Source: Flavobacteriales bacterium
Lineage (GTDB): Bacteria > Bacteroidota > Bacteroidia > Flavobacteriales > CAJXXR01
Length of the DNA: 64,000 nt
NCBI GenBank assembly: GCA_025210805.1
Contig: JAOAQX010000003.1
Coordinates: 124,001-188,000 of the forward strand
Direction: 5' to 3'
This document shows, one piece after another, positions 52,965 to 57,839 of this stretch. Both the position numbers and the translations under genes were made by a program. Positions within the stretch are counted from its first letter, which is position 1, and every line of letters begins with the position of its first letter. The notes under the pieces are model-generated. The model was not told where the DNA came from. It did not search any database and saw nothing but the letters and a program-made list of their open reading frames with translations.

Positions 52965-53002
52965 AGCAGTGTTGGAAATTAATTTTCAGCACTGCTTTTT
53001 TT
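52965..53002 (+). terminator. Terminator of glutamine synthetase, overlapping the WYL gene 3' end
   Basis: Stem AGCAGTGTTG (52965-52974) / CAGCACTGCT (52987-52996) with one G-U pair, then seven T. The right arm and T-run encode the last residues (KKSSAEN) of the converging WYL gene, whose stop is at 52979. Confidence 0.85.
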
Positions 53003-54004
53003 GTGGTAATTATTTAGTGCTTGCTTTAATTTCCGTTTAATTCTCCTTCTTAGCCCATTAGGCTTTAGGACTTCAATAGAATCTCCAAATCCTAAAATCA
53101 ATCTTTCAAGTTCGTAGTTTTGATGAACTTCTATTTTTATTTCTATGGATTGATCTGCATAGGTTTTTATTAATTCTTGCGATGAATGAAAAGGCTTTGT
53201 GAGTACATAAGGAGCATTTGATCGATCTATTTTTAAAAAAATCGACTCTTTTTGCTTTGGTTTCATCACAGTAACTCCAATGGTGTTTTTGTAGTATTCA
53301 TCAGGATTAATCGTGGTTTTTTTATAGAAATAATCCCATAAAAAATCAATGGAAATAATTCTATCTAAGGCCAGTGTCATAAGAGTTTCTTTACTGGAAC
53401 CCACTAAGAACCAACGATTATTAAATTCCTTTAACCAATAAGGATGAATTGTGAATAAAGACGATTTTCTGGCAGAAAAAGACTGGTAACAAATACTCAA
53501 AACTGTTTTTTTTATAATGCTTTGATAAAGAATATCTAGGTATTTCAAACCTTTTAATCTTTCGTTTTTATCAAGGTGAATTACCGGACCTCTTTGGTTT
53601 TGCTCGGCATAAATCTTGTCTTCAAGTCTATGGATAATACCTCCTAGCTCAGAAAAAAGTGAAAAATCTTTAAATTGTTTTAGCATTTCAACAGTTTCAG
53701 AGAGAATATACATATCGTTTTCCGTTATAGGAATATCCGTTATGGTGTAGTTAGGATCTTCATATTTATAATATTTTTTATCATACACTACAATCGGTGC
53801 ATTATAGCCCAATTTATCACTTCGCATATTTTGGATATCCAATTGAATCGTTCTCTTACTCACATTGACATCACGACTCTCATACTCATAAAGAGCATCT
53901 GAACAGGCTGTGATTAAATCCTTCAAAGTCCATTTTTTATACCTGTTTTGAAGACATTTATCAATGGTTTTATATCGTATTAATGCATTTTTATTTTGAG
54001 CCAT
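52979..54004 (-). CDS. WYL-domain transcriptional regulator divergent from the RNA-repair cassette
   Basis: A 341-residue regulator. Residues 1-75 are a winged helix-turn-helix (DKCLQNRYKKWTLKDLI, VSKRTIQLDIQNM). Residues 165-225 are the WYL domain (HPYWLKEFNNRWFLVGSS at about 187-204, ALDRI at 212-216). A C-terminal WCX-like segment ends FGDSIEVLKPNGLRRRIKR. This is the domain order of BrxR/CapW-type repressors that control phage-defence operons by sensing a nucleic-acid-like ligand in the WYL pocket. It is transcribed away from the tRNA-like array and SPFH-ligase-PNKP genes, which it probably regulates (inference from position). Confidence 0.9.
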   Translation of the reverse strand: MAQNKNALIRYKTIDKCLQNRYKKWTLKDLITACSDALYEYESRDVNVSKRTIQLDIQNMRSDKLGYNAPIVVYDKKYYKYEDPNYTITDIPITENDMYILSETVEMLKQFKDFSLFSELGGIIHRLEDKIYAEQNQRGPVIHLDKNERLKGLKYLDILYQSIIKKTVLSICYQSFSARKSSLFTIHPYWLKEFNNRWFLVGSSKETLMTLALDRIISIDFLWDYFYKKTTINPDEYYKNTIGVTVMKPKQKESIFLKIDRSNAPYVLTKPFHSSQELIKTYADQSIEIKIEVHQNYELERLILGFGDSIEVLKPNGLRRRIKRKLKQALNNYHKKSSAEN

Positions 54005-54230
54005 TAGTGATGTTTTTTGATAAAATTAGAAATAAAAAACTACTACGCAAAATAAATACGCACTTACTATTCATCTTTGCTTTGTCATTTAGAAATAAAT
54101 GCTCAAAACGATCTTTAAATTTATTTACAATATTGAGAGAGCCTTGTTTTGTGTTTCTGTATAGCACTATTGTTCAATAATCTGCCCTTTAGGTATCGAT
54201 TTATAGTATTCAGCTCGGCTCAAAGGTTTG
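54005..54230. promoter_or_regulatory. Divergent control region between the WYL gene and the tRNA-like array
   Basis: 226 AT-rich nt with no plausible gene. It should hold promoters for the leftward WYL gene and the rightward RNA/repair cassette. A near -7 box CATCTTTG lies at 54071-54078 (first base deviates). The 11-mer TTAGAAATAAA occurs at 54026-54036 and 54089-54099, exactly 63 nt (six helical turns) apart, and could be paired regulator sites. The evidence is weak, because such AT-rich words arise by chance. Confidence 0.35.
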
Positions 54231-54248
54231 TGAGTTACCAAAAACTCA
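54231..54248 (+). ncRNA. Hairpin leading the tRNA-like array
   Basis: Perfect 6-bp stem TGAGTT / AACTCA with loop ACCAAA, ending one base before module A begins. It resembles a reduced anticodon stem-loop (TTACCAA would be a Gly loop with A at position 34), but the closing pairs differ from a true 7-nt loop, so the identity is tentative. An upstream stretch, GCTC ... GAGT at 54218-54235, could alternatively form a D-arm-like hairpin. Confidence 0.45.
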
Positions 54249-54318
54249 TATCACGCTATGGCCGCAGGTTCGAATCCTGCCGAGAGTTTCTCGTAGTTCA
54301 GAGGTTAGAACAATAGCC
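54249..54318 (+). ncRNA. Permuted tRNA-like module A (opened in the anticodon loop, Asp-like)
   Basis: Order along the DNA: loop bases TATCAC, anticodon-stem 3' strand GCTAT (54255-54259), 4-nt variable loop, T-arm GCAGG-TTCGAAT-CCTGC (54264-54280), acceptor 3' strand CGAGA, cap GTT, acceptor 5' strand TCTCG (54289-54293), linker TA (positions 8-9), D-arm GTTC-AGAGGTTA-GAAC (54296-54311), A26, anticodon-stem 5' strand ATAGC (54313-54317), C32. All stems pair perfectly (5+5+4+5 bp). Rejoining the halves gives the loop CTATCAC, which differs from the usual tRNA-Asp loop only by A for G at position 34. The natural 5' and 3' ends are fused by a triloop and there is no CCA. Confidence 0.8.
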
Positions 54319-54398
54319 ACCCTATGTAGGTTCGAATCCTACTACTCTTCACTTGAGTATGGCGGAACTGGAAGACGCGCTAGATTTAAGTTCTAGTA
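54319..54398 (+). ncRNA. Permuted tRNA-like module B (opened in the variable arm, Leu-UAA type)
   Basis: Order: variable-arm 3' strand ACCCTA, T-arm GTAGG-TTCGAAT-CCTAC (54326-54342), acceptor 3' strand TACTC, 7-nt cap TTCACTT, acceptor 5' strand GAGTA (54355-54359), TG linker, class II D-arm GCG ... CGC with GG in its loop (54362-54378), and a complete anticodon arm CTAGA-TTTAAGT-TCTAG (54380-54396) with anticodon TAA. The 3-bp D-stem, TG linker and long variable arm are leucine-tRNA features. The variable arm can close as TAG-GGT / ACC-CTA with one bulged A if it borrows 54399-54403 from module C. The acceptor has only 5 bp and no CCA. Confidence 0.8.
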
Positions 54399-54473
54399 GA
54401 GGTAGAGCAATCGACTGATAATCGATGTGTTGTGGGTTCGATTCCCACTTTGACTGAAGAGTCAAATAGCTCA
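54399..54473 (+). ncRNA. Permuted tRNA-like module C (opened in the D-loop, Ile-GAU type)
   Basis: Order: D-loop remainder GAGGTA, D-stem 3' strand GAGC (54405-54408), A26, anticodon arm ATCGA-CTGATAA-TCGAT (54410-54426) with anticodon GAT, 5-nt variable loop, T-arm GTGGG-TTCGATT-CCCAC (54432-54448), acceptor 3' strand TTTGACT, tetraloop GAAG, acceptor 5' strand AGTCAAA (54460-54466), TA linker, D-stem 5' strand GCTC (54469-54472), A14. All 26 pairs (7+4+5+5+5 counting the joined D-loop as canonical AGAGGTA) are Watson-Crick except none required wobble. The full 7-bp acceptor makes this the clearest case. Confidence 0.85.
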
Positions 54474-54477
54474 ATTT

Positions 54478-54496
54478 TTCAGACTAAAAATCTGAA
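54478..54496 (+). ncRNA. Isolated anticodon stem-loop-like hairpin (Phe-like) ending the array
   Basis: Six-bp stem TTCAGA / TCTGAA with 7-nt loop CTAAAAA. It resembles a tRNA-Phe anticodon arm (usual loop CTGAAAA) with A for G at position 34. No T-arm, D-arm or acceptor follows, so only this arm is present. Confidence 0.55.
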
Positions 54497-54782: not shown

Positions 54783-55886
54783 ATGGAACTAAGAGTAAAA
54801 ATAAATGCCTACGAAGTAGGAATCGTAATGAAAGATGGGAATATTATTGATATTCTTACAGAAGGTAAATACTTCAAGAAACTTGGTACCGAGGTGTATA
54901 TTTATAATACAACACAGCTCTTTACAAGTAGAATTGAGTGGTCAATTTTGGAAAAAAATGAAAAACTCATGAAAATGTTGGAAATTGTGGATACCACTGA
55001 GAGTGAATTGGCAATAGTATATAAAGACAACAGGTTTTATACTGTTGTAAATAACTCTAGACTTGCGTACTGGAAAGGAGTTTTGAATATGAAATATAAA
55101 AAATATGACATTGAAGAACTTTCTGTTCCTAAAGAAATCAATAAAGCGATACTGAAATACCCACTAATGACTCAGTATTATAGACTTCTAGAAGTATCTT
55201 CACAAGAACAAGCAATCCTGTATGTGAATGGTGAAAAACGCAGTATTATCAAGGGGGGACAATACTATTTCTGGAACAACACAAAGAAATTGAGACTAGA
55301 AAAAGTGGATATGAGAAATCAGGACATGGAAATTATCGGTCAGGAAATTCTCACCAAAGATAAAGCAGCAATTAGGATAAATTTTCAAGCCAATTATAAA
55401 ATAATTGATGTAGAAAAAGCCCTGATGGAAAACAAAGATTTCAGCAAACAACTGTATTCTTCGCTTCAAATGGCGATAAGATCTTATATCGGTACACTAA
55501 CGCTGGATGAATTGATGGAAAACAAAGAGCAAATTTCTGGTTTTATTATAGAAAAAATCAAAAGTAAAATCACAAAACTGGGTGTCGCAGTAAACTCTGC
55601 AGGAATTAAAGATATTATTCTTCCTGGTGAGATAAAGGAAATTATGAACAAAGTATTGGTAGCACAAAAGAGTGCTCAAGCAAATACGATCACCAGAAGA
55701 GAGGAAACGGCTTCAACAAGAAGTTTGTTGAATACTGCAAAATTGATGGATGACAATGAAATGCTCTTCAGATTGAAAGAGATGGAATATGTAGAAAAAA
55801 TTGCAGAAAAAATCGGAGAAATTTCCTTGAATGGAAATGGAGGTATGGTGAAGCAATTGAAAGAAATCTTTGGAGCTAAATCTTGA
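54783..55886 (+). CDS. SPFH/slipin-family protein of an RNA-repair cassette
   Basis: A 367-residue protein. Residues 1-160 are a mixed alpha/beta region starting MELRVKINAYEVGIVMKDGN. Residues 165-290 match the band-7/SPFH fold (EQAILYVNGEKRSIIKGGQYYFW, EILTKDKAAIRINFQANYKI, IKSKITKLGVAVNSAGIKDI). A helical coiled coil rich in Glu and Ala follows (VLVAQKSAQANTITRREE). No N-terminal membrane helix is visible. Slipins are known companions of bacterial RNA-repair operons (for example with RtcB), as I recall. A scaffold role is inferred. It is the first coding gene after the tRNA-like array. Confidence 0.85.
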   Translation: MELRVKINAYEVGIVMKDGNIIDILTEGKYFKKLGTEVYIYNTTQLFTSRIEWSILEKNEKLMKMLEIVDTTESELAIVYKDNRFYTVVNNSRLAYWKGVLNMKYKKYDIEELSVPKEINKAILKYPLMTQYYRLLEVSSQEQAILYVNGEKRSIIKGGQYYFWNNTKKLRLEKVDMRNQDMEIIGQEILTKDKAAIRINFQANYKIIDVEKALMENKDFSKQLYSSLQMAIRSYIGTLTLDELMENKEQISGFIIEKIKSKITKLGVAVNSAGIKDIILPGEIKEIMNKVLVAQKSAQANTITRREETASTRSLLNTAKLMDDNEMLFRLKEMEYVEKIAEKIGEISLNGNGGMVKQLKEIFGAKS

Positions 55887-55938: not shown

Positions 55939-56961
55939 ATGAAATCTACAATAAACATTCAGAAAATTAGAGAATACATATCAAAAGGCTGGATTACAGA
56001 AAAAAAACACCCTATTCATGATATTTTTATTTACAATTACAGCCAAAAAACACAATTTGAATATTTTTGGGACACAACCACAATACAGTGTAGAGGATTG
56101 ATTTTAAACAAAGAGGGCTTTATACATGCAAGACCTTTTCAGAAATTCTTTAACCTATCTGAGCATCAAGGTGAAATCCCAAATGAAGCCTTTGAAGTTT
56201 TTGAAAAAATGGATGGTTCATTGGGGATATTATATTGGCTAGAAAATGAACCTTATATTGCAACAAGAGGCTCTTTTGAGTCTTGTCAAGCAAAGTTTGC
56301 AAATCAACTTTTAAGAACAAAATATCGACATATCTGGCAAAATTTGAATCCTAAATACACATACCTATTTGAGATTATCTATCCAGAAAATAGAATTGTG
56401 GTAGATTATGGAGCAGATGAAAAACTGGTTTTACTAGCCATTATTGACACACAAACAGGACAAGATATACCATTAAAAAACATCGGATTTCCTTTGGTAA
56501 AGAAATACTCAAACATCAAAAACATTACAGGTTTATCTAAGGAAAACAAAAAGAATGCTGAAGGCTATGTATTGCGATTTGAAAGTGGATTGAGATTAAA
56601 AATCAAATTTGACGAATATATTCACTTACATAAAATATACAATAACATTTCCTCTTTAGTCATTTGGAATCAGATGAAAAACGAAAGTTTAAACGAAAAA
56701 TTTTTAGCGGAAATTCCCGATGAAATTTATCCATGGATAAAAGAAATACAACATAAACTTGAGAAACAATATTCTGAAATAGAAAATCTTGCAAAACAAG
56801 AATACAAAGAATATCATACAAGAAAAGAAACTGCTGAATATTTCAAAACTTGTAAGCATCCAAGTATTTTGTTTTCCATGTTGAATGGAAAAAGTTATTC
56901 GGAATATATATGGAAATTAATTAGACCAAATTTTGAAAAACCCAAAATAACAAGAAAATGA
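55939..56961 (+). CDS. T4 Rnl1-like RNA ligase
   Basis: A 340-residue ATP-dependent RNA ligase. CRGLILNKEGFIHARPFQKFFN (about 51-72) precedes the adenylated Lys90 in FEKMDGSLGILYW (motif I KxDG). GSFES (motif III-like region), YLFEIIYPENRIVVDY, and EGYVLRFESGLRLKIKFDEY (motifs IV-V) complete the nucleotidyltransferase. A C-terminal helical domain follows. It seals 5'-phosphate to 3'-OH ends, the second half of T4-style tRNA repair. Start ATG 55939 (MKSTINIQKI) is chosen; the frame is open into the SPFH gene but that extension is not family-like. Its stop overlaps the PNKP start (ATGA). Confidence 0.93.
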   Translation: MKSTINIQKIREYISKGWITEKKHPIHDIFIYNYSQKTQFEYFWDTTTIQCRGLILNKEGFIHARPFQKFFNLSEHQGEIPNEAFEVFEKMDGSLGILYWLENEPYIATRGSFESCQAKFANQLLRTKYRHIWQNLNPKYTYLFEIIYPENRIVVDYGADEKLVLLAIIDTQTGQDIPLKNIGFPLVKKYSNIKNITGLSKENKKNAEGYVLRFESGLRLKIKFDEYIHLHKIYNNISSLVIWNQMKNESLNEKFLAEIPDEIYPWIKEIQHKLEKQYSEIENLAKQEYKEYHTRKETAEYFKTCKHPSILFSMLNGKSYSEYIWKLIRPNFEKPKITRK

Positions 56962-57839
56962 AAAAGATCATTTTACTTAAAGGTTTACCCGCAAGTGGAA
57001 AATCAACTTATGCAAAAGCCTTGGTAAAAAACAACCCAGGAATGTATAAAAGAATCAATAGAGATGAACTAAGAGACATGCTAGATTCTGGAAAATTTTC
57101 TAAGGGAAATGAGCAATTTGTTAAAAAAACCAGAGACTTTTTAATCAAAATGGCACTACAAGACGGAAAACACGTGATTGTAGATGATACCAATTTGCAT
57201 AGCTCAAATGAAGAGAAAATGAGAGCAATTGCAAAAGAATTTAAAGAAGAAACTGGACACCAAGTTCGGGTAGAAATAAAAACATTTGACACTTCTGTAG
57301 AAGTTTGTATAAAACGAGATCTATTGCGTGAAAATCCCGTTGGACAAGCAGTTATTAGAAAAATGGAACGACAAATGAATTCTAAGGAAAAAAAGTATCC
57401 TAAATACAGCGTTCAAAACCCTGAACTGCCCAAGGCAATTATATGCGATTTAGATGGAACTCTAGCCTTAATGCACGATAGAGGTCCATTTGAGGGGAAT
57501 AAATGCTTATCAGATTTACCAAACACTCCAATAGTGAATTTGGTGAAAAATTATCATAAAATGGGCTTCAAAATACTCTTGCTTTCGGGGAGAGATGGAC
57601 AATTTGAAAATGAAACCAAAAAATGGCTGGAGCAATATAAAATCCCTTATGATCAACTATGGATGCGTGCTAAAAAAGACATGAGAAAAGATGCCATTAT
57701 CAAAAAAGAATTATTCAAACAAAACATTCAGGATCAATATTTTGTGGAATTTATTCTCGATGACAGAAATCAAGTAGTGGATTTATGGAGAAATGAATTA
57801 AATTTACCTTGTCTTCAAGTGTATTATGGGGATTTTTAA
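56958..57839 (+). CDS. pnkp: T4 Pnkp-like polynucleotide kinase-phosphatase
   Basis: A 293-residue end-healing enzyme with the same domain order and length as phage T4 Pnkp. Residues 1-150 are the 5'-kinase: P-loop GLPASGKST (9-17), INRDEL, DDTNLH (76-81) and RDLLRENPVGQAVI. Residues 158-293 are the HAD-type 3'-phosphatase: DLDGTLA (nucleophile Asp164, acid Asp166), LLSGRDGQ, Lys in RKDAIIK, and LDDRNQVVDLWR. It removes 2',3'-cyclic phosphate or 3'-phosphate and phosphorylates 5'-OH, preparing ends for the adjoining ligase. It is translationally coupled to the ligase by a 4-nt overlap. Confidence 0.95.
   Translation: MKKIILLKGLPASGKSTYAKALVKNNPGMYKRINRDELRDMLDSGKFSKGNEQFVKKTRDFLIKMALQDGKHVIVDDTNLHSSNEEKMRAIAKEFKEETGHQVRVEIKTFDTSVEVCIKRDLLRENPVGQAVIRKMERQMNSKEKKYPKYSVQNPELPKAIICDLDGTLALMHDRGPFEGNKCLSDLPNTPIVNLVKNYHKMGFKILLLSGRDGQFENETKKWLEQYKIPYDQLWMRAKKDMRKDAIIKKELFKQNIQDQYFVEFILDDRNQVVDLWRNELNLPCLQVYYGDF

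Follow-up and report, generated by a model that had tools for sequence, protein, structure and literature searches.

The window, by which we mean the whole 64,000-nucleotide stretch of Flavobacteriales DNA that was analyzed, contains an RNA-repair operon. On the forward strand, this encodes a 367-residue SPFH/Band-7 (slipin) protein (54783–55886; Pfam Band_7, 6.4e-25; stomatin in the PDB, 1e-15), a T4 Rnl1-like RNA ligase (55939–56961; PF09511, 1e-16; T4 RNA ligase 1 in the PDB, 3e-18), and a PNKP with a 5′ kinase and a HAD 3′ phosphatase (56958–57839; HAD_PNKP, 3e-51; AAA_33, 4e-19). A regulator with a WYL domain is encoded divergently on the reverse strand (52979–54004; WYL, 1e-10; WCX, 2e-12). 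The RNA that we describe lies directly upstream of the slipin gene, on the same strand, and the Pfam and PDB matches, which bear out the PNKP and ligase of the original prediction, place its module A in a repair operon. Ahead of the RNA, a probable operator and promoter can be recognized by eye (54044–54079, forward strand). These consist of the operator repeat TACGCA...TACGCA (54044–54062) and a Bacteroidota-type −7 element ending in TTTG (54076–54079), and in relatives the palindrome TACGCAA-n-TTGCGTA precedes a TTTG box at the equivalent site. Transcription of the RNA probably begins some 10 bases past the −7 element.

As for module A (54255–54317, forward strand), its predicted topology is that of a circularly permuted tRNA, in which a short loop caps the acceptor end and the anticodon stem is where the chain comes in and goes out. 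This stem (54255–54259 with 54313–54317), seen in both the fold and the alignments, encloses a T arm (54264–54280), a closed acceptor (54281–54285 with 54289–54293; CGAGA-gtt-TCTCG), and a D stem (54296–54299 with 54308–54311). The bases had been placed exactly by the original prediction, with GCTAT at 54255–54259, ATAGC at 54313–54317, T at 54249, and C at 54318. When the segment 54249–54318 is folded in isolation, the minimum free energy (MFE) structure and the centroid are the same permuted cloverleaf, with its anticodon stem, T arm, closed acceptor, and D arm, and this structure makes up about half of the ensemble. The fold energy is unremarkable for the base composition (z of −1.85, 7 of 200 shuffles being equally stable), and folding energy by itself therefore could not decide whether module A is real. 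When the full-length RNA is folded by energy alone, the anticodon stem of module A is absent. The idea that this stem can exist only in a permuted reading has to be abandoned, since ATAG (54313–54316) also pairs locally with CTAT (54322–54325). We rejected the corresponding linear reading, in which module A pairs with the next T arm. It is possible in the window, but even under a lenient test the alternative pairing is found in only 5 of 22 slipin-linked loci, whereas the permuted stem is present in all 22. The description of the module as Asp-like is half right. Its 5′ half and loop resemble tRNA-Asp, and in the window the joined loop is truly close to the Asp loop, but the 3′ half best matches tRNA-Pro(tgg), with 22 identical bases, and the loop likeness is not conserved among relatives.

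The case for the permuted fold is comparative. We collected relatives of the operon's RNA ligase from bacterial genomes and found six with paired T-arm motifs upstream. When seven homologous modules opened at the anticodon loop, from the window and its relatives, were aligned, 97.7% of the cells in the helices were paired and the covariation score was 0.752, compared with 0.216 ± 0.040 in shuffled alignments (0/500). The anticodon helix in this alignment is 100% paired, and four of its five pairs show two-sided changes. A second alignment, of 12 slipin-linked modules without the window, gave 96.5% paired cells and a covariation score of 0.641, compared with 0.246 when shuffled (0/500). The covariance model built from these 12 modules finds module A at 54.7 bits (E of 8e-16 over the genome), and the one genome match that outscores it extends over 113 bases and coincides in part with an ordinary tRNA gene; module C, described below, scores 39 bits with the same model. 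The permuted anticodon stem, sought at fixed geometry, has four or more of its five pairs in every one of 22 slipin-linked loci, with 13 distinct stem sequences among them. As a check independent of our models, the Rfam YrlA model (RF02553) gives module A 31.5 bits and module C 24.4 bits, neither of which reaches the threshold of 69. A chance match, which energy alone had left possible, is ruled out by covariation. The MFE fold, the covariation, and a covariance model made without the window thus uphold the prediction of a circularly permuted tRNA mimic opened at the anticodon loop.

Judging by the aligned leaders, module A belongs as one of several domains to a longer conserved RNA, made up of a structured 5′ domain and, after it, two or three tRNA-like modules. 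The point of opening differs from module to module, being the anticodon loop in A, the variable loop in B, and the D loop in C. The conserved 5′ domain (54141–54229, forward strand), outlined by RNAalifold on the aligned leaders, contains a hairpin P1 (GTG 54151–54153 with CAC 54165–54167, loop TTTCTGTATAG) and a second helix. On 21 loci, RNAalifold predicts 12 pairs in this domain, 8 of them with compensatory changes, the covariation covering two helices, and a sequence motif of the domain is conserved in 24 aligned leaders. Directly 5′ of module A, a forward-strand hairpin recognized by eye (54230–54249; GTGAGTT 54230–54236 with AACTCAT 54243–54249) has T54249 as its last base, and similar GAT..GTTTT/AAAAC..ATC hairpins are kept in most flavobacterial relatives.

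Modules B and C, which are permuted as well, were delineated by eye, with support from folding and the covariance models. Module B (54326–54396, forward strand) is predicted to have a T arm (54326–54342), a closed acceptor (54343–54347 with 54355–54359), and its own anticodon hairpin, CTAGA-TTTAAGT-TCTAG (54380–54396), all three of which appear in the full-length fold. The D arm of module B is Leu-like and its 5′ half matches the tRNA-Leu of the host; with the R2 model, the module scores 19.7 bits. Module C (54405–54472, forward strand) shows a D stem (GAGC 54405–54408 with GCTC 54469–54472), an anticodon hairpin (54410–54426), a T arm (54432–54448), and a closed acceptor (54449–54455 with 54460–54466). 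It is marked by its fold energy (z of −2.65, with 0 of 200 shuffles as good), by a score of 39 bits with the R2 model, and by the Rfam YrlA match given above. Two conventional candidates, an ARAGORN tRNA-Ser at 54360–54457 and an Rfam tRNA match at 54390–54456, both run from module B into module C and are probably spurious. Further along the forward strand, an extra anticodon-like hairpin, CAGA-CTAAAAA-TCTG (54480–54494), can be made out by eye, and similar hairpins follow module B in relatives.

We searched 395 Bacteroidota genomes with the R1 module model and counted the compact matches (span of at most 72) that score at least 50 bits. Among these 33 compact matches, 16 lie within 3.5 kb of the slipin gene of this type and 16 within 3.5 kb of Ro60, the sole exception being a run of ordinary tRNAs; the slipin-side matches include the window itself and one over neighboring tRNA genes at the slipin locus of genome G085. 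Long matches, with a span above 72, are mostly neighboring ordinary tRNAs, and 35 of 37 are near neither slipin nor Ro60. Slipin itself is present in 20 of the 395 genomes, with a module match upstream in 19. The twentieth locus (L188) retains, as judged by eye, the motif of the 5′ domain along with a closed acceptor and its T arm. Three loci (L004, L011, and L014) have the ligase and the same promoter palindrome, without slipin and without the module. In one of these (L011:2874-4164), the place before the ligase gene that slipin and its RNA would take is filled by a different open reading frame of about 430 codons. Taken as sequence evidence, these comparisons establish how the RNA folds, that it is conserved, and that it is linked to slipin or, in a sister arrangement, to Ro60. 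The sister arrangement is seen in another member of the Bacteroidota (L016), where Ro60 and YrlA-like modules occupy the slot held here by slipin and the RNA in an operon of the same type. Mutually exclusive use of slipin and Ro60 by a genome is not supported, the overlap being one genome when about 1.4 would be expected by chance. The repair genes that adjoin slipin-linked modules elsewhere include RtcB, RlaP, and others, and no Rfam leader family beyond tRNA was found in the slipin loci inspected.

A repeat, TGCCGTAG..TACTTC, occurs at least once in 11 of 14 Ro60 loci and in none of 26 slipin records, in which one of 25 loci, that of the window, is represented twice, and may be a binding site for Ro60. 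Many of the Ro60 loci L131–L152, as well as L016, hold two to six copies of the TGCCGTAG..TACTTC hairpin around the tRNA-like modules.

Outside the Bacteroidota, a T arm with a closed acceptor is found, by eye and with the model, upstream of slipin homologues on large replicons of Citrobacter (beside rtcR), E. coli, and Subdoligranulum. In the Citrobacter locus (L194:6552-7001), slipin is divergent from rtcR, and a sigma54-like TGGCAC-N-TGGCA sequence and the T-arm/acceptor unit lie between the two genes. The tRNA-like units upstream of the Photobacterium and Burkholderia homologues are, by eye and with the model, in ordinary order. At two loci (L198 and L199), the non-permuted tRNA-like units upstream of slipin have anticodon arms that are shortened or odd.

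The circular permutation of Y RNAs relative to tRNA is documented (PMC11472068). The RNA in the window is best read, by sequence comparison, as the slipin-linked counterpart of the tRNA-like module of the Ro60 Y RNA YrlA, because 32 of the 33 compact matches adjoin slipin or Ro60. Like YrlA (RF02553), which goes with Ro60/TROVE, it permutes the tRNA fold circularly, closing the acceptor and placing the T arm before the D arm, and its gene lies beside RNA-repair enzymes. In contrast to YrlA, it has a different 5′ domain of its own and tandem modules opened at differing loops. It does not belong to YrlA proper, because the window's own genome has no Ro60 (TROVE) match at an E of 0.01, the repeat of the Ro60 loci is absent, and the Rfam score stays below 69. 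Against the permuted tmRNA family (RF04321), it scores 11.3 bits, short of the 47 required. In 2016, Burroughs and Aravind reportedly predicted a novel tRNA-like molecule for the SPFH/Band-7 proteins of RNA-repair operons, which we take to be probably of the same class as the RNA here. As in that class, a slipin/SPFH gene and RNA-repair genes are both adjacent, and within the class the SPFH protein would be expected to bind the RNA.

The arrangement of the operon has other parallels. As in Rtc operons (RtcR, RtcB, RtcA), the repair enzymes are under a divergent regulator, but the ligase here is T4 Rnl1-like and comes with a PNKP, and a WYL domain marks the regulator. A slipin lies within the rtc locus of P. 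aeruginosa (PMC13086221). In the TrcR regulon of Anabaena, which has an RHH repressor as its own feature, a slipin gene shares its control with rtcB and a reserve array of tRNAs (PMC10272220). Several of the slipin loci collected here likewise hold tRNA arrays. At L155, L156, L157, L160, L162, L164, and L165, arrays of up to nine ordinary tRNA genes lie beside slipin and the RNA, recalling the reserve array of Anabaena.

We think it reasonably likely that the RNA is a structural mimic of tRNA that acts with slipin in RNA repair, and it is probably a structural decoy or docking RNA rather than a broken tRNA awaiting sealing. We infer that it is transcribed, bound by slipin, and used for docking. 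It would be made upon induction of the operon and, being tRNA-shaped, would work together with slipin, whose scaffold would hold tRNA-handling or repair enzymes, or damaged tRNAs, via the RNA. Two points weigh against this reading: the full-length energy fold lacks the anticodon stem of module A, and slipin is not known to bind RNA. The main rival, which we regard as unlikely, is an autoregulatory leader. The RNA would then imitate the substrates of the enzymes, and ligase, PNKP, or slipin unoccupied by damaged tRNA would bind their own mRNA leader and thereby lower expression. In its favor, the RNA sits between the conserved promoter region and the slipin start codon, on their strand, in all of the 25 loci inspected, and it is absent where slipin is absent. 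However, the closely similar permuted modules at L016 lie downstream of Ro60 and not in its leader, and two or three domains of this size would be a high price for a simple switch. A decoy for anticodon nucleases, which would spare cellular tRNAs, seems quite improbable to us. The anticodon-like loops are diverse, real tRNA arrays are present at several slipin loci, and a decoy role has been suggested for YrlA (PMC7790460), but module A has no intact anticodon loop and the identity of the anticodon is not conserved.

The original prediction went further and proposed that module A may resemble a cleaved tRNA ready for ligation, which would imply that the PNKP and ligase process it and seal it into a circle. 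We consider this improbable, although several observations favor it. The opening does fall in the anticodon loop, the PNKP and ligase genes do adjoin, the 5′ half and loop do resemble tRNA-Asp, and a purine is present at position 37, on the 3′ side of the loop, in 18 of 22 homologues. By contrast, U33 is present in 8 of 22, the bases that follow the 5′ strand, on the 5′ side of the loop, are unconserved, and T54249, which is needed for a seven-base loop, can pair in the upstream hairpin. The openings of modules B and C fall in other loops, and the place of opening therefore has no fixed relation to anticodon nucleases. The anticodon opening also persists at loci without a recognized ligase in the stretch inspected and at loci with RtcB as the neighboring ligase (L158), an enzyme whose end chemistry is other than that of a ligase with PNKP. 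Moreover, the same topology was already known in YrlA Y RNAs (PMC11472068). A version in which the operon's PNKP and ligase seal module A into a circle in vivo, so that the state of the module reports repair capacity and sets the expression or assembly of the slipin complex, strikes us as very improbable. Hardly credible, finally, is the reading of the modules as permuted tRNA genes that yield working tRNAs after circularization, as in red algae and Thermofilum. As in circularly permuted tRNA genes (PMC3978253), the 3′ half precedes the 5′ half, and modules B and C retain loops of anticodon type. However, the acceptor of module A, five pairs closed by three bases, makes a 7-bp acceptor with a discriminator impossible and is not the full acceptor with a removable intervening sequence that such genes have. 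The acceptors of relatives often end in tetraloops such as GCAA. A permuted tRNA gene would also be expected to show U33 and a complete anticodon loop once joined, as the window does, but U33 is kept in only 8 of 22 homologues. The host has ordinary tRNA genes, and nothing points to a mature tRNA product.

What appears to be new is the tandem arrangement of permuted modules, together with its covariation. Under our preferred reading, that of a tRNA mimic acting with slipin, slipin and Ro60 would be alternative protein partners that RNA-repair operons use for one permuted tRNA-like fold. Should slipin bind the RNA, a soluble stomatin-like protein would gain a role in RNA biology, and the purpose of the tRNA-like module of Y RNAs could be tested directly. 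With the covariance models and coordinates, the RNA can readily be located and tested.

A search for slipin in phages gave no match. On each of two phage contigs from IMG/VR (L042:10670-10745 and L043:9318-9400), a permuted tRNA-like RNA stands by itself, with a basal stem of 8 bp; on these records, which are possibly partial, there is no TROVE match. With the R1 model, the RNAs score 47.7 bits (L042) and 45.5 bits (L043). The basal stem in L042 is formed by GTGGACGT/ACGTCCAC, and a run of T follows the RNA in L043.
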